Below, piece by piece: positions 1 to 25,544 of a DNA stretch of 25,673 nt. Position 1 is the first letter of the stretch. Each line of letters opens with the position of its first letter. The translations under genes and the position numbers were made by a program. The notes beneath the pieces are model-generated. The model was not told the DNA's origin, did not search any database, and saw only the letters and a program-made list of their open reading frames with translations. The DNA comes from Spirogloea muscicola (lineage: Eukaryota; Streptophyta; Zygnematophyceae; Spirogloeales; Spirogloeaceae). The DNA lies in the NCBI GenBank assembly GCA_009602725.1, contig WELB01000182.1, positions 87,970 to 113,642 on the forward strand. The letters are read 5' to 3'.

Positions 1-215
1 GCTGCCTCTGGCTCTGGCCAGGGGACCCACTTCCAGGAGCCCAGCATCTCTGATCTGCGGCTGCTTAGCAGGGGTTACTGAGTGTCTCGTAGCAGCTTTG
101 TTTCTGTTACTTAGCGCTTCCCCTGGCCCCCTTCTCGTACTCTGTTCATTCTTTTTCGGGCTGGTTATTCCAGCCCCTATTCTCAATGGGCGAGCACTTT
201 CTTCTAATCTGGCCG
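1..215 (+). repeat. Dispersed repeat copy P1: modules A (LTRGY end) and B (GWLFQP hairpin)
   Basis: Bases 1-81 read in frame as a peptide ending SDLRLLSRGY and a TGA stop. The window edge cuts off its start. Bases 144-203 read VHSFSGWLFQPLFSMGEHFL in module B. Bases 158-176 form a perfect hairpin, GGGCTGG / CCAGCCC with a 5-base loop. The block matches 22086-22305 almost base for base apart from short indels, so it is the same element about 22 kb away in the same orientation. The stop-to-B spacing of about 60 bases is kept in three other copies. Confidence 0.85.
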
Positions 216-751: not shown

Positions 752-1938
752 ATGGCGCGGGTCGGCTCCACGCTGGCGGCCGCAGCGCTGGCCGCCGCCG
801 CCGCCGTGCTCTCCACCGACAGCCTGCTCGCCCGGGTGCTCGACCACGCTCGCGCTTTCACCGGCGAGGCCCCCGTCACCGTAAGCCCCGCCTTTCGCCT
901 GTTATGCGCCATTGCCAGCTTAGGACTCAGGGTTTCGGGGTTTTGAGGTAGGATACAGGACTAGGTTTAGGATTTAGGGGTTCAAGGTTTCAGGGATTCA
1001 GGCTTAAGGATTTAGGCTTTACCGCCGCCGCAGCCTGACCGCCGCCGATTTCGCGCCCCGCGCGCCGCTGCGGTGCGCTGCCCGACAGGTTGTCACCTTC
1101 CAGGAGCACCGAGGCCTGGCGCTGCTGCGGCTGCTGCACCTCGTCGCCTTTGCCACGGCTCTCGGGACGGCCTACTGGGTGACTTTCGTCGGCGGCATCA
1201 TCATGTTCCGGTGAGGCTGTTGGCCGAAACGCCGCCGGCTGCAGATCTTGCGTGAAACACGGGACCTTCCAGCCTTACTCTTAATCGTGACCTGTCGACC
1301 TAAGCTCAACTTGTTTACTGCTACCTTTACTAGATATCTACTGCTATTCTAACCCTGCCCTTTCTTTACCCCACGCTGGACCACTGCTGCGACCGCAGGA
1401 ACCTGCCTCGGCATCAGTTTGGGACACTGCAGAGCAAGCTCTTTCCAGCCTACTTTGCCACACAGGCCGTGTGCGCCTGTGCTTGCATCGCCGTCTTCGC
1501 AGCACTCCACCCCGTGCGCGATTCGCAAGAGGCGCTACAGCTCGCTGCTCTGGGCGTCGTTGCGGTGTGCTCGCTTTTGAATATTGCCGTGTTTGGGCCA
1601 GTGACCAGAAAGGTCAGTAATCACCTCTGCATGCAACTAGCACCCTTGGCTGATAGCAAGGTATAACCTGCATGCGCATGGCTCACTCAAACCAGGTGAA
1701 ATGGACTGTGGTATTCACGCAGATTACTCAGGAGCGGCACAAGGTGGAGCGTGAGGCTGGTATTGGCCAGGAGGCTGGGCTTTCTAAGAATCGCGAAGTT
1801 GCCAAGACAAACCCACAGCTTGCAGCACTTAATAGGAAGTTTGGCACATGGCACGGACTCTCGTCCATAGTGAACATGATCTCGTTTTGTGCTCTGTGCG
1901 TCCACCTATGGTACCTGGCCTGCCGCCTCCTCGTCTGA
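752..1938 (+). CDS. TMEM205-like (DUF4149) four-pass membrane protein, 4 exons
   Basis: Exons 752-880, 1089-1210, 1399-1612 and 1696-1938 join in phase to about 235 residues. The start ATG at 752 has a strong GCC-ATGG context. Residues 1-25 are Ala-rich and signal-peptide-like. Family hallmarks follow: LRLLHLVAFAT then WVTFVGG in TM1 (about 58-83), NLPRHQFG and QSKLFPAYF at the exon 2/3 join, TM2 and TM3 in exon 3, then LNRKFGTWHG and TM4 near the C-terminus. This matches animal TMEM205 and the plant proteins that carry the same domain. The family's biochemical role is poorly defined; human TMEM205 is linked to cisplatin resistance. The first intron is the weak point: the strong AG at 1032-1033 breaks frame, so I chose the AG at 1087-1088, which keeps phase 0 and a plausible protein. 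The gene converges on the BRCT/PHD gene. Confidence 0.85.
925..1020 (+). repeat. Degenerate telomere-like heptads in intron 1
   Basis: Intron 1 of the TMEM205-like gene contains a run of imperfect 7-8-base units such as TTTAGGA, TTTAGGGG, TTTCAGGG and TTTAGGC. They resemble decayed TTTAGGG telomere repeats. The G-rich strand is the coding strand. Confidence 0.55.
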
Positions 1939-2080: not shown

Positions 2081-5000
2081 TCAAGAAGCCTTTGTGCTAC
2101 ATGAAGAGCAGAACCAGTCCTCCTGGGGGACTGCATTGAGTGGCGGCATTAGGCAGTGGATGTGCACAGCCAGGCTGCAGCCACGCCCGCGATCATCCCC
2201 GCAGAGGATCATGATGTCCTCATCGTCTGTTCGGTGGCACTTAGTGCAGGCAATTGAGTCCACTTCCGCCCGGTTCTTGTCATCGCACGTGCCAGGCTCA
2301 CTGTGTCCATGTCCTGCCTGTGTTGCAGCTGTAGCTGCTTTAGCTCTCCTTGAAGAAGAAGCTCTTGCCGACTTGCTCCTGCCCTTGCCTTGTTTCATAG
2401 TTGCTTGTGGCAGTCCGACCACCTCAGGCTTTGACGCTTGTTCGCTGCCTGCAACATCCACCTGTTGCTTGCTGCTACGAGCTGCAGGTCTTGCATCCGC
2501 TTTGATAATCTCTGCCACCCTTGTTCCAACCTTTGCGAGTGCCTTCTCTACGGCTGGCCTTGACTCAAAGAGGATGAGTCTGCACAAACATGTATTTCAG
2601 ATTGCTTTAAATGCCTGTGAATGTCAAAGCAAACATTGTCCCCAAAGACAAGTATGCCCCCATATTGCTTCGCTATGTAAAGAGCAGACACTGGTGCTTG
2701 TATGTGGACAATGTACAGCTATGGTGCCTTATTATAAGTGTGATAGCAGAATATGCATTGCTTGTCAGCTTGGCCTTGAGGGCAATTTTCAGAGGGCAAG
2801 AAGCCCTCATACCTCACGGGGATTTTGCCACCCTTGGCAATGAGCTCCACAAGGAAGTCAGGTGCGACACAGCCCACACCAGCATCCAGCAGCCTTATGA
2901 CCCACGGGTCTTCTCGACTGATGGCAGGGCCGATGATGGCGAGGTCGAGGCCACCTGCAATGGCCCGTGCAAACGGTGGGCCAGTGCCTACCATCACGCC
3001 ATTGCCTGCTGTGATGCCCCTGACCAGGATACCCTACACACCACGTCAGCAATGAGGCTGTCAAAACACTTCTCAGTAGGCAAATGAAGTTGTTCTGCAA
3101 AGCTTCAAAGAAACCTGGCAAGAAGAGCTGTACATACTCATCAACCCGTAATCAGCGCATGCTAGCGCAGACAAGGAGTCTGTAAGCACTAGGTGTAATA
3201 TCAGTGAACAATATACAAGTAAGCAAGCTTGACAGTGTGACCATGTTCTAAGTGTGCCAAATACACCATGCCCGTCAACTCTGAAGTGCTCTCTCCTGGG
3301 CACTGTGCGCTCTGCTTATGCATTGGTCTTTCAGTTACAGATATGCTTGTTGATGCACAGTATTCAATGTGATCTGGATCACCAGGTGACTTGACTGTGA
3401 GCTGCTTACAGTGGGTGGCGAGACAAGGTCCCCATGAATGACAGCTTTCAGATCTTGAAATGCTGCACAGCTTGAGATCTGGCGCTGTTCTCTCCAGCAC
3501 CGTGCAGCAGCCAACTGTATAGACCCATCCTCGTTAGCACCATCGCCAAACCATTCATGATCCAACTCGGCAACGAAGTTATTAGCTGCTAGGCTTGCGT
3601 CAAGGTATGATGGCTTCAGCAGCCACCTACACTCGCATCAGCAATAAGCTTTAGCAACAGTACTGATGGTCAACAACACAAAGTAAAACATGTCAAGATC
3701 ATCAGTTCACATACTCATACCTTTGTCTTCCTTAGGCTTCTGACAGTGCATTACTCTCAAGTATGTGCAGCATGTGTTCCTTTGACCAAGCATCAGACAT
3801 AGTGGGGTGCAGGGAAGGGTAGCGACAGGGCCGGCAGGAAGCTGCATAGCAAGCAGAGGCATTATCAAGTGTACATAAAGAAACAGCTACGCTACACAGG
3901 TGGCCAATACCTGCCTGCAGCTGCACCAGCGAAGAACTTCTCAGTGCGTCGCAGGGGCTCCGGCAGGATGACATGCGTTGTTCTCTCATCCCACTGCTGC
4001 TGATCACGACACAGCTTCCCTCCTAGCTTCTTGATAATACCCTCATACCTGCTCTTGATTACTGACCTGCCTCCAAGTGCAAACCAGCGAATACACTGCT
4101 GCGTTGAACAGGTTAATCTGTCTAGCAGAGTCTTATCCGGACCTACAGTGTCTGAACTACAGAAATTGTCCTCTGCAGATGTAGACACAATATCAAGTCC
4201 CTGCCTTGATTCCGCACTACTCCTGCTAGTCAGATTGTCCTTCTTTGTTGGCTGACCACAATCGGGCCTGGCTTTCCGAGTTGCTATATCGCAAAAATGC
4301 AAATGACTGCTGATACTCAGCTTAGCAGTGACTCTGTTGTCTGCTTCGTCAGATTGCTCCGAAACAGTACTACTATCAATATCAGCCTTATCAATGGAAG
4401 CTTGATGAGCACCAAATTCACTGTAACTGACTACCAAAGTTTCTCCGGGGAGCTGAGGCCTTCTGCGCTTCAAACTGGGGTGACGACTACGCGACAGTGG
4501 AGAAATCACAGGAAGACCCTTATTAACCCCGTCTTGAGGAGCACATACAAAGGCTGGGTCCTCTGCAAAGAGCTTGTGAATTGATGTGTCACCTGCTCTG
4601 CCTTCGGTGTCCTGGTCGGCGTCTTGGCTAGAACTGCGACTCTGGCAGCGCTTCCTTCCCAGGTTGACGCCAACATTGCATCCTTTCCTTTCTAGAGGCT
4701 CACGTAAGACCTCATCCTCACGGTTGGCCTCCTGCCCCGGCAACTTGCCCTCAGAAGAATGGTACAATTGAGGCTGGATAGGTGAGCCAACAACCTCTTC
4801 TTTGCTGCTTCCCACATCAGGCATGTGCAGCACTGATTGGACTCCTGTCAGGCTGTCACCTGCTTGCCGAGATGAAGGTGTATCTTTGCCGTCCTTGGAG
4901 CACCACAAAGCGGCTCCATCACCTTCAGACCTGCTGCCAAGATTCTTGCTAGCTAGACCAAAGCCAATATCCCTGCTGTTGACGCCGGCCTTGAGGGCCC

Positions 5001-7743
5001 TCTCGGTCTCGCTTGCATCGCGGGTGTACACGAGCCACTCGTCGTCACGATTCACTTGCCTCCACCTCCCTGACCGCGCCGCTGACTTTGAGGGGGCAGG
5101 TATGCCAACTTGCTTTGCAGACTCCTGAGCACAACCTGCCTCGGATCCCTGCTGTTGCCTATTGACCTGGTCAACACCTCTCCCTCTTTCTTGCTCAGCC
5201 TTCTCATCAGGCAACTGACTGGTGAGTCTCTGGATATTCTGAAGTTGACCATCTTGCTTGTCATTGACAACACTGCCTGTGGCTTCATCGTGAGTAACCT
5301 GCCTAGCACCGAGCAAATCACTGTCATTCCGCCTGTCACCACTTAAGGCTTCCTGGTGGCTAGGAGCCTGTTTGAAGGCAGAAGCTTGGCACGTACTTGT
5401 GGACTGCTTTGCTGCTGTGGAGCTAGGTGTTGAAATCAGCGGGTTACAGGGCCTCGTCGACAGGTCTGCATCCACGTGCTTCTCACGCACAGAAACAGAG
5501 GGCACTGACTCGACTTCGCACTGCTCAAATGTCACTGCTTCGTCAGGGTCGTCTTCTGGCTGAGTGAGAGCGTCCAAGTCCACGTCAGCTGCTGCTCCTG
5601 CAGCTGTTCTTATAATCTCCACAGCCATCCCAACAGCAGCTTCACGATTGTTCATGTCCTTTGCAGCATCTGCATCTTCGCGATCAAGAGGCATCCTGTC
5701 TGAGCCTACAGCGACCAGCTGTACTGCCTCTGCCTCGCTCTTGAGGACATCATCACCACTGCAGCAGGAGAAGAGCAGACTGGGTTACTGCAAATAGGAG
5801 CTCTAAACTTGTCATGGTCTTACCTACACTCATTTGCATCATTGACAGTGGGTTGAGCAATCTGGAAATGGGCCCATACCTTGCACAGTATTTATCAGGC
5901 GGGAGCACTTCCCAGAAGCGCAAGCTGCTTGCAGATTGCAACAATTTGTCATGTTCCGATTGTAGTGTGTTAGCATGCAGGCAAATATTTTCGTCCAGGC
6001 CAAAGCTATTGAAAATCTACACCATTGATGCTGTACTTGTAAGAGCTGAGCATGGCAGAATACTGTCACAGAGCTTGGGAAGTGATTGCTAGTGAATAAG
6101 CTGCTCACCAGTCTTCAAGCCAGAGATGGTTAATAATGACAATTCGACCGGTCTTCACCGCCAGATTGTACTTCTCACCTGAGATTTCGCAGCGCCAAAT
6201 CTGTTAGACGATATTAATGCATTACAAATAATAGCAGCCATCCCAACTAGCACCAAGTCGTTTGCTAGCACGACAAAGTGTTGAGGACTTCTAATGCATC
6301 TGTTCCCAGAATTCCAAGCCTGAAATTGAAGTTCCTGAAGCAGGGGCAGGTAGCAAAAGTGCGGCAGAGACCTTCAAATCTGCAGCAGATCAGGTGAGAA
6401 ACACGATTGGCATGAAGTTGCTTGGAGAATGTTGCTCCCATCATCTCTGCCAGGAGCTACACAAAGGAAGAGCATGCGAATATGAATAGAAGTTGCAAAA
6501 TGTGCAGCATCACATTGACCTTCAGCAATTTTCAATCGGAGGCCCGATTAAAAGCCCAACGAGTAAGAGCTAGAGTCACTTGAGCAACAATTGTCGTCAA
6601 CTCGTCTGCATGCTTAATGTGAACAGAGGAGGTCCAAGGAAACAAGAGAATGAGAGTGAAAGAGACCATGATGTCACGGCGGAGCTTGCCCTGATATCCA
6701 GTGAGGGAAATAACAAGCTCGGATGCGGAAGGAATGCCTTTGACGTCCTTCACAGGCTGGTACAAAATCTGCACCTCCAGCAGCAAGCCTTGCGCACATA
6801 CTTAGCAGGCCTTCTAACCACTGTCACTAAGAACAGTGTTGCTGCAACTTTGCATCTACTCTAAGGCACGTACTTGGAGTAATGCAGGTTACCTCAATTG
6901 TACTCTGTGCGATGCAAATGGCTTTGTGGTGCTCACCTTTCCAGGAGCAATTGCCATCTTGGCGGTCAAGCAGTCCTCTACCCATCGGTTGGTCACCAGC
7001 ACCTTCCCATCCTTCTTGGCTGCCATGCAGATAGGATCACCCTACGCAGACCAAGAGATGCCAGCTTGTCATCACGGAAGGGCTTTGGATATGCAATCAT
7101 CTATGGACATGGCTTGTAGAATCAGTGTGCTACTTGTTCCTACTCGCACTGTTGTGAGCACAGGATGTGTCACACAAAGTCTTCTAATTGTATGCAGGCT
7201 GAAGGAATCCTACCAGAGCAAGGTTGCAAACGATCACGTGAGAGCACGACGTATCATATCTGCTCAGCACGTTGCCATCATGCTCCCTGATCGTTGCAGC
7301 CACCTGGATGCACTTATGCGATGAGTTGCGCCTGGCACTAGAATAGGAGCCTATACAGTGCTTCACATTTGTCAATGACCACGCCCTCCTTGACTCGATT
7401 CATAGGCTCAACACGATAGTCGGTCATAACAGGCTCGACAAATGACCTTGCAAATGTCTACTTCTAAAACATCACAAGCTGAAGGTGTTCTACTGCACCA
7501 ATCGACACTGCAGTGGGCAAGGCTCGTCGCTCGGGACGCCGCGGGTGCAGCTCGGCGCAATGGTGAGGATGAAGAAGCCGGACGCTGGGAGCCAAGCATC
7601 GAGGAGAGGCTGGCTGGGCGGCCCTGCAGCACCTGGCGCTCCGTCAGCTCGGTGAAGCCCGCCAGCACGGCCGTGACGCCGCCGAAGATGCCACCGCCGT
7701 CGGCGGCGACGGCGGCGGCGGCGGGCGCTGCCTGAGCAGCCAT
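2081..7743 (-). CDS. BRCT-repeat and PHD-finger nuclear protein (plant At4g02110-like), 11 exons
   Basis: Minus-strand exons 7743-7633, 7303-7214, 7041-6937, 6774-6667, 6456-6372, 6178-6109, 5924-5880, 5758-3911, 3626-3410, 3033-2813 and 2579-2081 join in phase to about 1132 residues. BRCT1 (about 19-100) runs from IFGGVTAVLAGF to VTNRWVEDCL. BRCT2 (about 110-205) has LVISLTGYQG, SHLICCRFEG, KYNLAVK and NHLWLEDCLRFWEVLPP. The 1.85-kb exon 8 is mostly acidic, Ser/Gln-rich and probably disordered, ending in BRCT3 (THVILPE, TEKFFAGAAAGRW). BRCT4 (AFQDLKAVIHGD) spans the exon 9/10 join. A C4HC3 PHD finger closes the protein (ACTKC, ILC, GC, HIHC, FCSSC). The order matches the plant BRCT protein represented by At4g02110. 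BRCT pairs usually read phosphoproteins in DNA-damage signalling and PHD fingers usually read histone H3, so a chromatin or repair role is inferred. Exon 1 is GC-rich and poly-Ala. Exon 4 could instead start at 6768. Confidence 0.9.
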
Positions 7744-15467: not shown

Positions 15468-20654
<5,187 letters not shown>

Positions 20655-20776
20655 GGCGGGCGAACGAGCTGCAGGCCAGGAATGGAGTGCGTAGTGAGTG
20701 ATGGAGGGCCTGAGTGGCCAAGTGCAAAGGCGGGCAGATTGGCAGATGTACATCACCTGCTGCTGAGCTGACCAGC
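20655..20776 (-). promoter_or_regulatory. FAAL-ACP 5' leader derived from repeat-element 3' flank
   Basis: On the minus strand this runs from the stop codon of repeat module A copy F to the FAAL ATG. Its first half matches the sequence after copy E (21545-21480): both contain a GTCA, CTGC, AGGTxATGTA, GCCTTTG, TGGCCA series in the same order. The leader or promoter of the ligase gene therefore appears to come from, or to have been invaded by, the repeat family. Confidence 0.5.
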
Positions 20777-20869
20777 TCAGTACCCACGAGTTAGCACGTA
20801 GAGGTCGGTAACCAAGGCCTGAGTACCGAAAGGCAGGCTGGAGAGGGAGCTGCAGGCCTTGTCTGCACG
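20777..20869 (-). repeat. Module A copy F (ends TDLYVLTRGY-stop)
   Basis: The minus frame reads RADKAC, then TDLYVLTRGY and TGA. It is 30 codons from the Arg, three shorter than the other copies. The frame stays open upstream to about 21139. A GTGCAG just before the conserved part could be a splice acceptor. Confidence 0.65.
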
Positions 20870-21149
20870 GCAGCCATGGCAGCCATGGCTGGCCAGCCCG
20901 AAGTTGCAGGCGGTGGCAGGGGGGAGCTGCAGGCTGGGGGCTGGCACCGCCTTTTGGCAGCGCCGCCAGACTTGGAGGCGGACGGAGTGCGCAGCGTTCC
21001 CCGTTCTGGCAGAATGGCCTTCTTCTGGCGGCGCACGGCGGCCGGGGTGCAGATCTCGGCTAGATTGGGCGACGGGCCGCTGGATCTGGGCCCCCGCTAG
21101 ATGGGGTCCTACTCTGGCGGAGCCGGGGAGGCACTCCACTCCGGGAAGC

Positions 21150-21212
21150 CCGCGCGACCACGACCGCGACCGTGGCTGCGACCGCGACCGAGACTGCGAC
21201 CGCGACCGCTAC
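21150..21212 (+). repeat. Imperfect GCGACC tandem repeat
   Basis: This is a run of CGACCG/CGACCA hexamers with occasional GTGGCT and AGACTG units. Read on the plus strand it gives alternating Arg-Pro or Asp-Arg, and on the minus strand Val-Ala. It looks like simple-sequence expansion rather than a gene. Confidence 0.7.
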
Positions 21213-21234
21213 GGCAGCCAAGAAGAGGAAAGGG

Positions 21235-21300
21235 AAGTAGACGCTTCCAGCAGAGGGCGACGTCTGTGACTGGCCAGCTGAGCAAAAATATACACGCTTC
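21235..21300 (-). repeat. Module B copy (degenerate)
   Basis: The minus strand reads VYIF then AQLASHRRRPLLEA. This aligns with the B consensus VHFFSGWLFQP and with the degenerate copy at 23195-23262. It directly follows the C module. Confidence 0.45.
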
Positions 21301-21304
21301 GAAA

Positions 21305-21415
21305 AGAGAGAAGGCGCGCGGTGCGCATGAAAACAAAGCGAGGCCGATTCAAGCCGACACAATGTTCAGGCAAAACATGCAGAAAGTGCAAAGAATGCAG
21401 CGCAAAGAATGTGGC
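21305..21415 (-). repeat. Module C copy 1 (LPEHCVGLNRPRF)
   Basis: This block of about 110 bp closely matches 25087-25196 over its full length and 22449-22511 over its first 60 bases. Shared blocks on the plus strand include GAGAGAAGGCGCGC, GCGCATGAA and TGTTCAGGCA. The minus strand reads LPEHCVGLNRPRF then FMRTARLLS. Confidence 0.75.
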
Positions 21416-21545
21416 TACATCTGGGCCGGAGGTGCCACGGAGCGGGGGAAAGAGATCGTGTATTAGAAAGAAATGTAGGCCAAATGGCCAGGTACAAAGG
21501 CAAGCACATCTAAAAATCTACATTACCTACAGCAGATTGACCCGC

Positions 21546-21656
21546 TCAATAACCACGGGTCAAAACATAAAGGTCACTACTCGATGCATGAATACTAGAT
21601 GCCAGGAACGGAGCCCTTCTGCCACCTACTAGAGCTCGCCCAGCTTTCTGGTGCAA
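21546..21656 (-). repeat. Module A copy E (36 residues to SSDLYVLTRGY-stop)
   Basis: The frame LHQKAGRALVGG ... SSSDLYVLTRGY-TGA is exactly 36 residues from the Leu. The frame stays open upstream to about 22115 and includes a tandemly duplicated segment. Confidence 0.75.
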
Positions 21657-21814
21657 GGCACTAGCCTGAGCACGCTGCAAACAGGCCGAAACTCGTCGTC
21701 GCAAGAGCGACAGATATGCAGCTGGCAAGCCCATCTCAGCCGGAAACACATCTGCAGGTCGAGTGTAGCCTAGATTGGCAATGTTTTGAAGCAGTGTGGA
21801 AGCGAGGACCCAAA

Positions 21815-22036
21815 CCGTGCTGACGGGGGGGAACCGTGCTGACGGGGGCCATGTAGACTCGACCTGTACCACTTGTGGAGCTGCTAGAGGAGGGTGAGAA
21901 AGCAGCAATGGCAGAAGGGTGGGCGGGTGGGGGAAAGGAGGGCCGGAGGTGCCACAGAGTGGGGAGAGCCGTGCTGACGGGGGCCAGGACAACTCGACCT
22001 GTACCGCTTGTAGAGCTGCTAGAGGAGGGTGAGTAA
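21815..22036. repeat. Tandem duplication, unit about 135 bp
   Basis: The block starting CCGTGCTGACGGGGG at 21834 recurs at 21969 and continues through TCGACCTGTACC and CTGCTAGAGGAGGGTGAG with few changes. A 15-base partial unit lies at 21815. The 135-bp period is a multiple of three, so the minus-strand frame feeding copy E stays open through both units. Confidence 0.8.
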
Positions 22037-22055
22037 GCAGTCTATGGCCCGGGCG

Positions 22056-22305
22056 TTGCACCTTCGTGCCGGCAGAGCCCTCGCTGCTGCCTCTGGCTCT
22101 GGCCAGGGGACCCACTTCCAGGAGCCTAGCATCTCCGACCTGAGGCTGCTTAGCAGAGGTTACCGAGTGATTCGTAGCTGCTTTGTTCTCTGTGTGCTTG
22201 TTCTTTTCAGCGCTTCCCCTGGCCCCCTTCTCATACTTTGTTCATTCTTTTTTGGGCTGGCTTTTCCAGCCCCTATTCTCAATGGGGCGAGCACTTTCTT
22301 CTGAG
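22056..22305 (+). repeat. Dispersed repeat copy P2: modules A and B, stop codon lost
   Basis: The plus strand reads LHLRAGRALAAASG ... SDLRLLSRGY, 36 residues, but the stop is CGA instead of TGA. Module B follows at 22240-22299, with a perfect GGGCTGG/CCAGCCC hairpin at 22254-22272. An extra G after ATGGG shifts its last residues. It is near-identical to 1-215. Confidence 0.85.
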
Positions 22306-22448
22306 GAAGCAGCAATGGCAGGGGGGATGGCGGGGGGGGGAGGAGGGCCTGTGGTGCCGCGGCCGCCAAGAGTTGGGTGGCCGAAGGGACAGAACCTCGC
22401 TTGTACTCAGGCCGTCGCTGCCCGTGAAGACAGGAGGCGCTTGGTAAG

Positions 22449-22511
22449 GAGAGAAGGCGCGCGGGGCGCATGAATTGAAAGGGAGGCCAATTCAAGCCAA
22501 TACATTGTTCA
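22449..22511 (-). repeat. Module C copy 2 (LPEQCIGLNWPPF)
   Basis: It shares GAGAGAAGGCGCGC, GCGCATGAA, GCCAATTCAAGCC and TGTTCAGGCA with the other C copies. It is cut off after the GCAG, so it lacks the last 45 bases found in copies 1 and 3. Confidence 0.75.
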
Positions 22512-22581
22512 GGCAGAGTCGAGTGCAGACTAAACAATGCTACATAATACGGAGACCTAATCTAAGGTACCTAAGATGACA

Positions 22582-22692
22582 TTAGTACCCACGGGTGAGC
22601 ACAAACAAATCTGACAAGCTAACTTGGGGAGCTGGAGCGCCGCCACGAAAGCCGGAGGCCTGACTTAGAGCGCGCCCTGCACGTTGATGAAG
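22582..22692 (-). repeat. Module A copy D (36 residues to SDLFVLTRGY-stop)
   Basis: The frame LHQRAGRALSQASG ... SLSDLFVLTRGY-TAA is exactly 36 residues. It is the only copy with a TAA stop. The frame is open upstream to about 22932. Module C copy 2 follows downstream. Confidence 0.75.
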
Positions 22693-22926
22693 GTAAGGGA
22701 GGACGAGCTCGGCTCCGCCGGGGTAGAGGAAACCGGGGGGCCCGAGGCCACCGCTGCGGGGCTTGAAGCGTCGGGAGGAGCAGCTGCCGCTGGCGCAGGC
22801 ACGGGGAACTGCTGCCCAGCCGAGGGTGACCGGGGCACTCGGCAGCGCTTGCCCGCGCGGGCAGCGCGAGGCACCCCGGAGGGGGGGGGCAGGGTTTTGC
22901 GCGGCCTTGAGCGTGGCGCCCAAAGT

Positions 22927-22986
22927 GTTCATTTTTTTTCGGGCTGGTTGTTCCAGCCCCTATTCTCAATGGGCGAGCACTTTCTT
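22927..22986 (+). repeat. Module B copy with intact hairpin
   Basis: The plus strand reads VHFFSGWLFQPLFSMGEHFL. The hairpin GGGCTGG/CCAGCCC lies at 22941-22959. No module A precedes it on this strand; it sits head-on to copy D on the other strand. Confidence 0.75.
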
Positions 22987-23194
22987 CAAAGAAGCCCCGC
23001 GGCCCGGCCCGGCCATGAGCTCGTCGGCGCTAGCTCGCCAGCCGGCGGCAGCGGGGGGCAAGCGCTGGCGCCCCAACGGTCGGGTGGGGAGGGGATGAAA
23101 GAATCCAAGAGACGCAAAAATGTACAAGCTTTAGAAAGTAGACGGCGGTGCTGTGGCAAGAAGAAGCTCTTTCAGGCGGGGGCATTGGCTGAGC

Positions 23195-23262
23195 GGCCCA
23201 AGGAAACAGCTCCACCAGTGTAAGGCTATGGCTGTGAGAGGCCAGTTCAGAAGCAATGAACA
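23195..23262 (-). repeat. Module B copy, decayed
   Basis: In the B frame the minus strand reads VHCF, stop, TGLSQP, stop. The stops and the imperfect stem show decay. The following CTTACACTGGTGGAGCTGTTT resembles CTTACAATGGTAGAGCTATTT after the copy at 23959. Confidence 0.55.
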
Positions 23263-23769
23263 CGGGCTTAGAGGGCCGGAAGGCGCAAATATCACGAAAC
23301 TCCTTCCCGTGACTTCCGCAAATTGACGCCCAACAACCTCTGGTCCACGAATGCAGATCGGTGTAAGTAGAGGGCGGCGGCGGAAGAGCGTTGCCCTATC
23401 GGAACCAGGAGGCAGCAGCCAAGGCTCTGGCCTGCATGCAAGTGTACGGCAAACGCCAAGCATTGCTACAAGGAGATGGCAAAGGCGCATTCTGTGCACC
23501 CGAGCAAGCGAGGTTTGGGACTTGTTGGCTCAACCTAGTCCAGCAGCTTGCGCAGCGTGCTGCAACCCGCCGTTCAATGGCAGCAGAGCCAGCAGCCTGG
23601 CTTCGACGCCGTCGGGTCGCTTGCTCGGGTATGCAGACTGTCCTTTCTCTTTCTCCTACCGGCGGCCGGAACAGCCAGGGGCGCTGCCCAGCTCAACGCA
23701 GCCGGCTCGCTAGCGCAGGTACTCCATATTCGGCTGGCGGTCTCGTTCCAGCGCTCCCTGGCTCACGCA

Positions 23770-24055
23770 ATTTACACGCGTGCAGGCCGTGCTATGGCTG
23801 CTGAGTCTGGGTCTCGGCGGAGTGTCTCATTCCCAACTTCGAGTTACTCAGACTCAGACTTGCTGTTGCTCACACGTGGGTACTGAGCTTCCTTCTGCGT
23901 CGTCTCGTGTCTACTTGTGTGATTTTTTTACTCGGCACCTTTTTGGGATTTGGATAGTGTCCATTTCTTTTTGGGCTGGCTTTGTCAGCCCCTCTTCTCC
24001 ATACGCGAGCACTTCTCCTTATTGCCTTACAATGGTAGAGCTATTTCTTCAAAAG
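23770..24055 (+). repeat. Dispersed repeat copy P3: modules A and B
   Basis: The plus strand reads IYTRAGRAMAAESG ... SDLLLLTRGY-TGA, 38 residues. Upstream, the open frame from 23548 contains QPGFDAVGSLA, which recurs as QPGFNAAGSFA in copy C's frame. Module B at 23959-24018 reads VHFFLGWLCQPLFSIREHF, with a weaker hairpin (GGGCTG/CAGCCC) at 23973-23991. Relative to the other B copies, the changes include synonymous third-base substitutions. Confidence 0.75.
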
Positions 24056-24135
24056 CCCCATGGAGACTAACTGCGAGCGCGACGAAGTCGTCGCTAGCAG
24101 GGTGGTCTGCGTGCTTCCGCTCCTTGGCATCTGCC
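24050..24135 (-). pseudogene. Module D copy 1: possible retroelement polyprotein C-terminal fragment
   Basis: The minus strand reads AKERKHADHP then DDFVALAVSLHGAF. It aligns without gaps with the fragment at 25225-25340, with about 15 of 26 residues identical and many synonymous differences. The pattern (K, about seven residues, then FVxLAVxxHGA) recalls the C-terminal region after the reverse transcriptase in some plant and algal retroelements. That family assignment is from memory of the pattern and is tentative. No reverse-transcriptase core is visible here. Confidence 0.4.
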
Positions 24136-24544
24136 GTTTGCGGACAGAGTAGCTCTTCTTCAGGGGGTGAGCGTTGCAATGAAGAAATGAGCTCTTCCAT
24201 ATAAAACTCGCTCTTCTAGAGGGGGCCGGGGTTGGTAATGGGCAGCCCCCATAAAGAATGAATAAGGTCCAGTGCTGCTGCAATCGCTTCTAGCTGCTCA
24301 TGGCTGCTGCTTCTGGATCTCGTCGGGGTGCCTCCTTTCCAGCTGCGGCTGCTGTCGGGATTACCAGCAGTCGCTGTGGTCACTTGCACAGCTGTGACAT
24401 TTGGCGCCTTTTGGCCCTGTGGACCTTTTCATTCTATCTGTGCTGGTCCATGTGCTGGGCCCTGGGGCCGAGCCAGACACACCCTCAGACGAGCTAGGGC
24501 AGTGTACATTGCCGGACTAACGCAGCAGCTAAGTCAAACAGCTC

Positions 24545-24830
24545 TTCCATGCTGACAGCGTGGCTGTAAGAGGCCAGCCCAACGAAGGAAGAGCCCGAAG
24601 GCCGCTTAGGGCGGCCATCAGCACCTACTCCCGCTTCAGCAGAGAGAGCCTTCCAGGAGAGGCGGGTGGCTGGACGAGAAGAAAGATGCTTTCAAGAGAG
24701 GGCGGTGGCTGGGAGAGGCCAGCCCATAAGAAACTGAAACAGTCCCGCTTCAGCCTTCCACAACGGAGAACAGCGCTTCCAGATTGACTGGTGGCTGTGA
24801 GGGGCCAAAAGAGTGGACAAGGTCTGGAAG
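24545..24830 (-). repeat. Three module B copies in a row, degenerate
   Basis: Minus-strand B-like blocks lie at about 24830-24770 (VHSFGPSQPP), 24748-24680 (FLWAGLSQPPPSLESIFLL) and 24600-24545 (LRWAGLLQP). Each shows the plus-strand core GGCTGTNAGNGGCCA or GGCTGGGAGAGGCCAGCC. The middle and last keep a short stem. The first lies 60 bases after the module A copy C stop, the usual A-to-B spacing. Confidence 0.6.
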
Positions 24831-24886
24831 GGCCGGATGGCGTAAGAAGCAAGACACTAATTGCTAAGCCGGCAGCAAGGGGGCAC

Positions 24887-24997
24887 TCAGTAACCGCGAG
24901 TTAGTAACTGCAAGTATAAGTAATTTGCAGGCGGATAGACGTCACTCCGATGGAAACCGCAGGCAGCAGCCAAGGCGCGGCCTGCGCGCAGGTGGAC
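24887..24997 (-). repeat. Module A copy C (36 residues to LQLLTRGY-stop)
   Basis: The frame VHLRAGRALAAACG ... YLYLQLLTRGY-TGA is exactly 36 residues. The frame continues upstream through QPGFNAAGSFA to about 25204, across module C. A CGCGCAG before the AGRAL segment is a possible splice acceptor, as in copies P3, D and F. Confidence 0.75.
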
Positions 24998-25086
24998 AGC
25001 GAAGGCAAAGGACCCGGCGGCATTGAAGCCAGGCTGCTCGCTCTGCTGCCCGTGGCGGCGGGTCACTGCACGCCACGCAAGGCGGT

Positions 25087-25196
25087 GAAGAGAGAAGGCG
25101 CGCAGTGCGCATGAAATTAAAGCGAAGCCAATTCCAGCCAATACGTTGTTCAGGCAGAAAATGCAGAAAGTGCAAAGAATGCAGCGCAAACAATCT
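25087..25196 (-). repeat. Module C copy 3 (LPEQRIGWNWLRF)
   Basis: Plus-strand blocks GAGAGAAGGCGCGC, TGCGCATGAAA, TTGTTCAGGCA and GTGCAAAGAATGCAGCGCAAA match copy 1. The minus strand reads LPEQRIGWNWLRF, FMRTARLLS. It lies upstream of A copy C and downstream of module D on the same strand, giving the order D-C-A-B. Confidence 0.75.
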
Positions 25197-25217
25197 GGCG
25201 ACATATGGTGAAGAAGG

Positions 25218-25544
25218 TCAAGCCATTTTGACCCGAGCTCCGTGTACGTCGACGGCGAGCAGGACGAACTCGTCCCCCACTGGGTGCTCCGCGGACTTCA
25301 GCTCCTTGACGCCCGCCGCTTGGCGGGTTGCGTAGCCGGCAATCTCCGACGAGCGTTGGGCGCTCCTGGTACCAATGCAGTCGGTGGTGACCAACGTCGG
25401 CAATGAGCCGGGGCCCCCCGCCGTCAGAGGCATGACGCTGGGAACGCGTTCCGTCCCGTTCACGTCTGCCGACATCCAACGTCGTCCGCCCGACGTCCGC
25501 GCGCCGCGGCGCGTGATTGCGCCGCGCGGCCCACGTGGAGACAA
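25218..25544 (-). pseudogene. Module D copy 2: possible retroelement polyprotein C-terminal fragment, truncated
   Basis: This open minus frame of about 108 codons contains VTTDCIGTRSAQRSSEIAGY, ATRQAAGVKELK and EHPVGDEFVLLAVDVHGA, then ends within six codons of the HGA. Copy 1 also loses similarity right after HGA, so both seem to break at the same place. The DVTxTD...A..GYA..K pattern followed by FxxLAVxxHGA suggests the segment after a reverse transcriptase. That is an inference, not a match I can prove. The upstream part is very GC-rich and its reading is uncertain. Confidence 0.4.

Follow-up and report, generated by a model that had tools for sequence, protein, structure and literature searches.

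Short repeated frames ending in RGY in Spirogloea muscicola: the probable C-terminus of a LINE protein of restriction-like endonuclease type

What is the short peptide that recurs on both strands of a stretch of 25,673 nucleotides from Spirogloea muscicola (assembly GCA_009602725.1, contig WELB01000182.1, positions 87,970 to 113,642 of the forward strand), and how can its residues hold while the DNA beneath them varies? In this stretch, hereafter called the window, a reading of the sequence alone (the original prediction) had described seven copies of a frame with a common end, and had proposed that it could be the last exon of a repeated gene or part of an autonomous mobile element. The comparisons presented here indicate that the peptide is very probably the extreme C-terminus of the single protein of a long interspersed nuclear element (LINE) of the restriction-like endonuclease (RLE) type, with at least six families (A to F) and a seventh, G, that is known only by its end. 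The repeated peptide is a real protein-coding signal, and it belongs to a known kind of element.

The seven C-terminal copies were confirmed by six-frame reading at 1-81 (+), 20777 (-), 21546 (-), 22056 (+), 22582 (-), 23770 (+) and 24887 (-). In four of them (21546, 22056, 22582 and 24887) 36 residues, counted by eye, run from L/V-H-x-x-AGRAL to the final tyrosine, as predicted; the copy at 20777 has no LHxRAGRAL start. The codon variants listed earlier for Arg-Gly-Tyr were found again, and the synonymous drift is upheld. The common in-frame end, typically SDLxxL(T/S)RGY, also stood, but its S/T-D-L part is not universal, the 24887 copy reading YLQLLTRGY. Likewise, a TGA or TAA stop does not close every copy: at 22056 the TAC codon is followed by CGA (22164-22166). 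What did not hold is the treatment of 36 residues as a unit, as the similarity extends further upstream in the better copies, reaching 83 codons at 98.8% protein identity in the copy at 21549, and the master frames described below align with each other over more than 1,200 residues. At the DNA level the seven copies align chiefly close to the C-terminus, as the families differ and have different 3' untranslated regions (UTRs); after assignment to families, the copies represent seven separate 3' ends from six families.

Open master frames and the protein they encode

A protein search of the genome (153 Mb, 471 contigs) with the translation of 23539-23883 gave 13,279 first-look candidates, 150 of which were scored, and among the scored ones were several within open frames some 1,400 codons long. 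Family A is represented by two masters (L001, 1433 codons; L002, 1393 codons). A 21546-type query led to two masters of family B (L010, 1313 codons; L011, 1350 codons), a 22056-type query to one of family C (L030, 1328 codons) and a 22582-type query to one of family F (L105, 1292 codons). These figures are lengths of open frames and not of proteins. The longer intact copy that the original prediction had suggested looking for is therefore present in four families, and its proposal of an autonomous mobile element is supported by frames of 1292-1433 codons that bear a reverse transcriptase (RT) and end in the same C-terminus. Frames running to thousands of codons were discounted: both of those fetched (L003 and L004) cross assembly gaps. 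A 1331-codon F candidate (L031) was set aside on the same ground.

The protein identity between masters is 66% for A and C, 42% for A and B as well as for C and B, and 45-51% for F against the others, and families D (L085, L067) and E (L032, L046) match the masters across the RLE region and the tail. From residue 430 on, a single codon of 1004 separates the two A masters, which lie at different loci, and a single codon of 985 the two full-length B masters; such near-identity of full-length copies probably reflects recent activity. In the F master (L105, 266-4141, minus strand) an N-terminal block of about 90 residues, RGGDxPSTSE...PMDEDVPPDGAPTATPL, is present twice; a doubled block was not noticed in the other families, where no search for it was made. 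Among viral contigs (viral_contigs) there were 25 pattern matches, and tblastn confirmed no relative.

The masters share one domain order: C2H2 finger motifs (two in A and C, one in B and F), RT, a CCHC-like knuckle, the RLE motif set and a tail ending in RGY. Pfam scans covered the A, B and C masters and matched RVT_1 above the cut-off (E 1.1e-16 for B, 8.3e-16 for C and 2.5e-13 for A), and YADD or FADD occurs in all four master families. When a profile of five A, B and C frames, running from before the RT to the end, was compared with solved structures, the top matches were three R2 retrotransposon proteins (E 1.3e-9, 2.1e-9 and 2.7e-9), followed by the RNA-directed DNA polymerase 8c8j (0.0035), a group II RT (0.0043) and, more weakly, LINE-1 ORF2 entries (0.0066-0.011) and other bacterial RTs. 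NCBIfam gave group II RT matches only, far below the cut-off. Downstream of the RT, the masters of all four families carry a knuckle of the form C-x-C-x(11-12)-H-x(3)-C, and after it the motif set D-X14-D and K-X2-(K/H)-Y. Knuckle followed by RLE is the order described for RLE LINEs, with the knuckle written as CX2-3CX7-8HX4C, in the available part of PMC5678591; the other papers cited below were likewise available in part. Positions invariant across the four families number 146 of 360 in the RT, 20 of 41 around the knuckle, 34 of 121 in the RLE region and 22 of 73 in the C-terminal tail. In the last 12 positions the figure is 8, and it is this final segment, not the whole tail, that is conserved at or above the level of the enzyme cores.

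Several observations weigh against the assignment to RLE LINEs. The C2H2 fingers are motif matches below the Pfam cut-offs where scanned. The knuckle spacing is CX1CX11-12HX3C, compared to CX2-3CX7-8HX4C in the accessible text of PMC5678591, the PD motif has A, V or L where P is expected, and in B and F a histidine takes the place of the second K of KX2KY. A phmmer search with one master against solved structures gave no match at E up to 0.1, and a profile confined to the RLE region gave none at E up to 10, so that the endonuclease call rests on motifs and position. In addition, the family G copy has no match to a master protein, its single match being on the other strand.

Counted from residue 430 of A_L001, the A and C masters differ with dN 0.21, dS 1.17 and dN/dS 0.18 over 997 codons; dN/dS was 0.29 for A-B and 0.31 for C-B, with dS near saturation in the comparisons that involve B. 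Over the last 12 codons the seven families (21 pairs) differ 92, 58 and 166 times at the first, second and third codon position, and 95 of the 110 single-change codons are synonymous (15 non-synonymous), the neutral expectation being 26-34%. Serine and arginine are each written in both codon blocks across families. The original prediction had named a dN/dS near 1, or equally strong similarity in other frames, as the mark of a neutral repeat; run between families, this test does not indicate one (dN/dS 0.18-0.31), and the predicted selection on the protein of a multi-copy family is borne out by the codon comparisons.

Within families, the synonymous share of single-change codons, set against the same neutral reference of 26-34%, was 44% in D (310/705), 51% in F (36/71), 52% in B (138/263), 64% in G (21/33), 68% in C (76/111), 82% in A (884/1073) and 87% in E (160/184), with pairs differing at more than 40 sites dropped (8 of the 36 C pairs, none elsewhere). 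The share is highest where sub-lineages mix and weaker in B, D and F. No family gives a clean neutral signal. The codons indicate that selection acted on the protein of active copies, and the within-family shares fit selection in several master lineages combined with decay in the inactive copies descended from them.

Copy number, ends and insertion

Genome-wide, the pattern CTNACNCGNGGNTAYTGAG (LTRGY-stop-G) has 2,052 + 2,100 exact matches and the C-type pattern CTNAGCAGRGGNTAYTGAG (LSRGY-stop-G) has 1,793 + 1,753, whereas neither matches when reversed. The sum of these two 19-base patterns, 7,698, is a lower bound for RGY-stop sites, since the patterns exclude each other. A pattern for the A/C tail matches 1,421 + 1,373 times, its reversed control not at all. 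The copies are spread over many contigs, with varied flanks in those that were fetched. In 16 arbitrary stretches of 2.5 kb the families cover 3,894 of 30,628 non-N bases (12.7%), a small and uneven sample in which 4 stretches hold 3,804 of the bases, 2 hold fewer than 50 each, 7 hold none and 3 are wholly N. The 3'-anchored copies were identified with actual copies as references; these are incomplete for D to G, and those of A2 and G seem to hold pieces of foreign repeats; therefore the share of 12.7% is rough in both directions, and the counts of nesting and adjacency given below may miss cases.

The 3' UTRs, as cut for the references, measure 95-141 nt including the stop and have a terminal inverted repeat and a pyrimidine-rich end. 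Folded singly and compared with shuffled sequences, the A and C tails gave z values of -4.0 and -5.5, and those of B, D, E, F and G only -0.5 to -1.6. RNAalifold predicted an outer and an inner 7-bp helix for 32 A/C-type tails, a set from which 10 of 42 had been removed by eye as having a truncated or unrelated-looking outer arm, which biases it towards structure. None of the 14 pairs is changed on both sides; the A/C 3' structure is therefore predicted, not proven.

The elements have no long terminal repeats. Among six full-length loci, L002 and L010 showed no direct similarity between the 5' and 3' sides. Short direct matches of 37, 69 and 45 nt occur at L001, L011 and L105, respectively; the other A copy lacks the L001 match, and the other B copy lacks the L011 match. 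A match of 195 nt at L030 fits an older C copy upstream.

In 32 copies both junctions could be placed. Two exceed 3.9 kb and 30 start no more than 400 nt from the 3' end, although the fetched length favours short copies. Flank strings of at least 7 nt are shared in 10 of the 32, against a mean of 1.97 when flanks were re-paired. These target-site duplications were taken as the longest strings shared within 22 and 24 nt around the junctions, a few of them including letters of the element tail, and the count leaves out copies below 95% identity, those with N and those whose junction falls at the start of the reference. The anatomy, the 5' truncation and the duplications are all seen directly in the elements themselves.

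LINEs with an RLE, that is R2 and its relatives, bind the 3' end of their RNA, nick the target and copy the RNA from the nick. By analogy, the protein from the single open reading frame (ORF) would bind the 3' end of its own RNA, the RLE would nick one strand of the target DNA, and synthesis of cDNA would be primed from the nick with the element RNA as template. Early arrest of this synthesis would leave 5'-truncated copies, with 3' ends such as those in the window, and repair of staggered nicks would yield short target-site duplications. Selection for a functional protein in active elements would keep the C-terminus constant.

Alternative origins and known relatives

The finding that the peptide is repeated, in frame and constrained at the protein level with a constant end would also suit the final exon of a large family of host genes. 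However, the masters are single uninterrupted frames that include the RT, the two end-site patterns alone give 7,698 exact matches, and copies begin at many different points and carry target-site duplications, which makes this origin extremely improbable. We consider it just as improbable that the peptide is a neutral DNA repeat, a satellite or an element resembling a miniature inverted-repeat transposable element, that looks coding by accident. Many copies are indeed short, and some remnants consist of the tail only, but the bias towards third positions between families (92/58/166), the use of both codon blocks for serine and arginine, and the dN/dS of 0.18 for A-C over 997 codons are not those of neutral DNA. 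A LINE of another type, either Dualen, which has both an apurinic/apyrimidinic-like endonuclease (APE) and an RLE, or an APE element resembling L1 or Zepp, is slightly less improbable yet still very unlikely. Dualen and Zepp-like kinds are known in green algae, and Zepp arrays consist mostly of nested 3' ends, according to the portion of PMC8226300 at hand. Against this, a Pfam scan of the A, B and C masters, taken up to E 10, gave no APE family (HMMER filters were on, which drop most matches above about 0.1), the RLE motifs lie downstream of the RT, and R2 proteins outrank LINE-1 ORF2.

A separate question is whether insertion favours the 3' ends of older copies of the same elements, which we think rather unlikely, if less so than any of the alternatives above. 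In the C1 sample (the first 41 of the 48 C1 places among 100 listed of 4,152 matches, fetched as 39 loci) the 5' boundary adjoins the tail of another copy in the same orientation in 8 of 54 cases, compared to 3.3% of random positions, and the other joins were one tail-to-tail and two 5'-to-5'. The genome contains 35 matches of two tandem A/C tails 45-75 nt apart, and 28 matches of two facing A/C-type tails within 30 nt, two sites being counted on both strands. Moreover, the first four bases past the 3' end are 81-84% pyrimidine (76-84% for the first five) as against 58% at positions 21-40 (n=103). In the window, however, same-orientation adjacency of a tail and a 5' boundary was found in 0 of 7 cases. 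Nesting in older copies amounted to 9 of 66 cases (two doubtful, with a gap of 37 nt and an overlap of 27 nt), in a set where some 5' boundaries, above all in the D rows, are mere drops in identity. This is close to the families' sampled genome share of 12.7%, and random insertion would yield nesting at about that share. Insertion into an older 3' UTR would also create tail adjacency, and the pyrimidines past the 3' end may be a variable tail of the element rather than target. As nesting approximates the genome share, the window gives 0 of 7 and facing tails are frequent, self-targeting is kept only as a rival. The facing tails, for example at G000:C11:1240124-1240162, suggest opposite-orientation insertions at nearly the same place.

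Within the RLE LINEs, the R2 group gives the best RT match among solved proteins and, by the order in the available part of PMC5678591, has the same single ORF with N-terminal finger motifs, RT, knuckle and RLE set. R2 targets one site in the 28S rDNA, as far as the accessible literature goes, whereas the elements described here are dispersed at thousands of places, and their knuckle spacing and first RLE motif deviate. They also have a conserved C-terminal tail ending in RGY, for which no R2 counterpart was sought. R2 in the strict sense was rejected: the pattern matches run to thousands, the copies lie on many contigs, and those that were fetched have varied flanks. Of the RLE clades CRE, R2, R4, NeSL and HERO, the comparison with solved structures covered R2 only.

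Besides Dualen, five RLE clades are distinguished in the available part of PMC4640811, from which the following descriptions are also taken. The Utopia/NeSL elements resemble those of S. muscicola in having one to three N-terminal fingers, a central RT, and a C-terminal finger with an RLE. Utopia is tied to U2 snRNA genes and has been reported from Amoebozoa, SAR and Opisthokonta; the copies here differ in being dispersed. The varied flanks of the fetched copies, and a window without Rfam matches at gathering cut-offs, speak against insertion into U2 snRNA genes. In Pfam the A, B and C masters gave neither a cysteine protease nor an RNase H family. HERO is a clade of RLE elements with many non-specific families, and the elements here seem non-specific too, a likeness by description and not by sequence. 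Dualen encodes both APE and RLE and is an RLE-bearing LINE as well, from which the A, B and C masters differ in the lack of an APE match. No algal RLE-LINE family was announced in the titles that were found, one of which concerned oomycetes and plants; absence from print is not claimed.

Zepp and L1 elements carry their APE endonuclease upstream of the RT, whereas no APE family was matched in the A, B and C masters. Relatives of Chlamydomonas contain L1, Dualen and Zepp-like LINEs, and Zepp and ZeppL share with the elements described here a frequent 5' truncation and nested insertion (PMC8226300, available part). In Coccomyxa, Zepp forms strictly one cluster per chromosome (PMC3446292, available part), in contrast to the copies scattered over many contigs here.

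Element remnants in the window and their meaning

The copies in the window are inactive debris of LINEs and are collected in the table.

Positions of LINE remnants and associated features in the window
Feature	Position	Strand	Remarks
Family C 3' end	1..204	+	Peptide to 78, TGA 79-81, 3' UTR to ~204; window edge cuts the copy; blastn 100% over 204 nt to L030 3' end
Family D 3' end	20697..20828	-	Peptide end 20780, TGA, 3' UTR; 84% to D reference
Family B 3' end	21453..21815	-	~362 nt, 5'-truncated; coding 21549-21797; 98% to L010 3' end; tblastn 98.8% over 83 codons, E 7e-39 at genome size
Family C 3' end	22040..22301	+	Stop changed to CGA at 22164-22166; 89% to C reference
Target-site duplication CCTTACC, 3' side of F copy	22443..22449	-	Shared flank string, placed by eye
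Family F 3' end	22449..22692	-	244 nt; 100% to F reference, itself a genomic copy (L043)
Target-site duplication CCTTACC, 5' side of F copy	22692..22698	-	Shared flank string, placed by eye
C-type terminal hairpin and tail only	22926..22987	+	62 nt, non-coding; 97% to C tail
Family A-like copy	23472..24016	+	Coding 23472-23576 (weak, 43%) and 23692-23883 (LTRGY-TGA end, 73%), joint tblastn E 2e-9 at genome size; 3' UTR with hairpin to ~24016
Family E copy	24772..25090	-	Peptide end 24890 and 3' UTR; weak blastn to E reference, 66%
Decayed RLE-coding fragment	25236..25454	-	Upstream of the E copy C-terminus, same orientation; tblastn 49% over 73 codons to A_L002 RLE region, E 4e-9 at genome size

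A direct repeat, D2, occurs at 21304-21424, 22447-22567 and 25088-25208. Its second copy overlaps the tail of the F copy, while the first and third resemble, by eye, F-type 3' tails without a coding end, so that LINE 3' ends in the window seem to outnumber the RGY copies. A pair of 80-nt segments at 21826-21905 and 21961-22040 is 89% alike, and the second stops where the C copy begins. On the minus strand, the D 3' end lies directly upstream of an apparent gene start on the same strand at about 20655 (by eye); this gene has an AMP-binding match (PF00501) at 19215-19625 in its downstream part, and its 5' leader or promoter may contain the D remnant. Matches to DUF4149, PHD-finger and BRCT occur in frames at 1334-1663 (+), 2084-2596 (-) and 3895-5784 (-). 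Between about 0.2 and 20.6 kb the LINE references gave only two weak matches, both in GCC-rich repeats. The window gave no match to Rfam at gathering cut-offs, and a tRNA scan found none. Across the genome, exons for chlorophyll a/b-binding proteins are numerous (68 matches to PF00504, the best at E 3.9e-33), and among 14 control genomes Synechococcus elongatus alone gave a signal as well; together with the genome size this points to a photosynthetic eukaryote.

In kind there is nothing unusual here: the peptide closes the protein of what appears to be an RLE-type LINE. Nevertheless, these elements account for the odd coding signal and for what may be a large share of the intergenic DNA, and gene annotation of this genome should pass over short open frames that end in RGY. 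A more far-reaching proposal, which we put forward tentatively and believe on balance to be wrong in at least some part, is that they form an undescribed clade of RLE-only LINEs that has lost target specificity and become a main intergenic repeat, with the AGRAL...SDLxxLTRGY appendage behind the endonuclease as its hallmark and, in A and C at least, a structured 3' RNA end. If this is true, the appendage would have a function, such as binding the 3' RNA end or bracing the nuclease.

The number of families, the near-identical open copies and the conserved end give the elements moderate interest. RLE LINEs are mostly target-specific (PMC4640811, available part), and several families with near-identical open copies and no evident site would be useful for understanding how site specificity is lost. 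In addition, the constant C-terminus that follows the nuclease motifs offers a functional element that can be tested.

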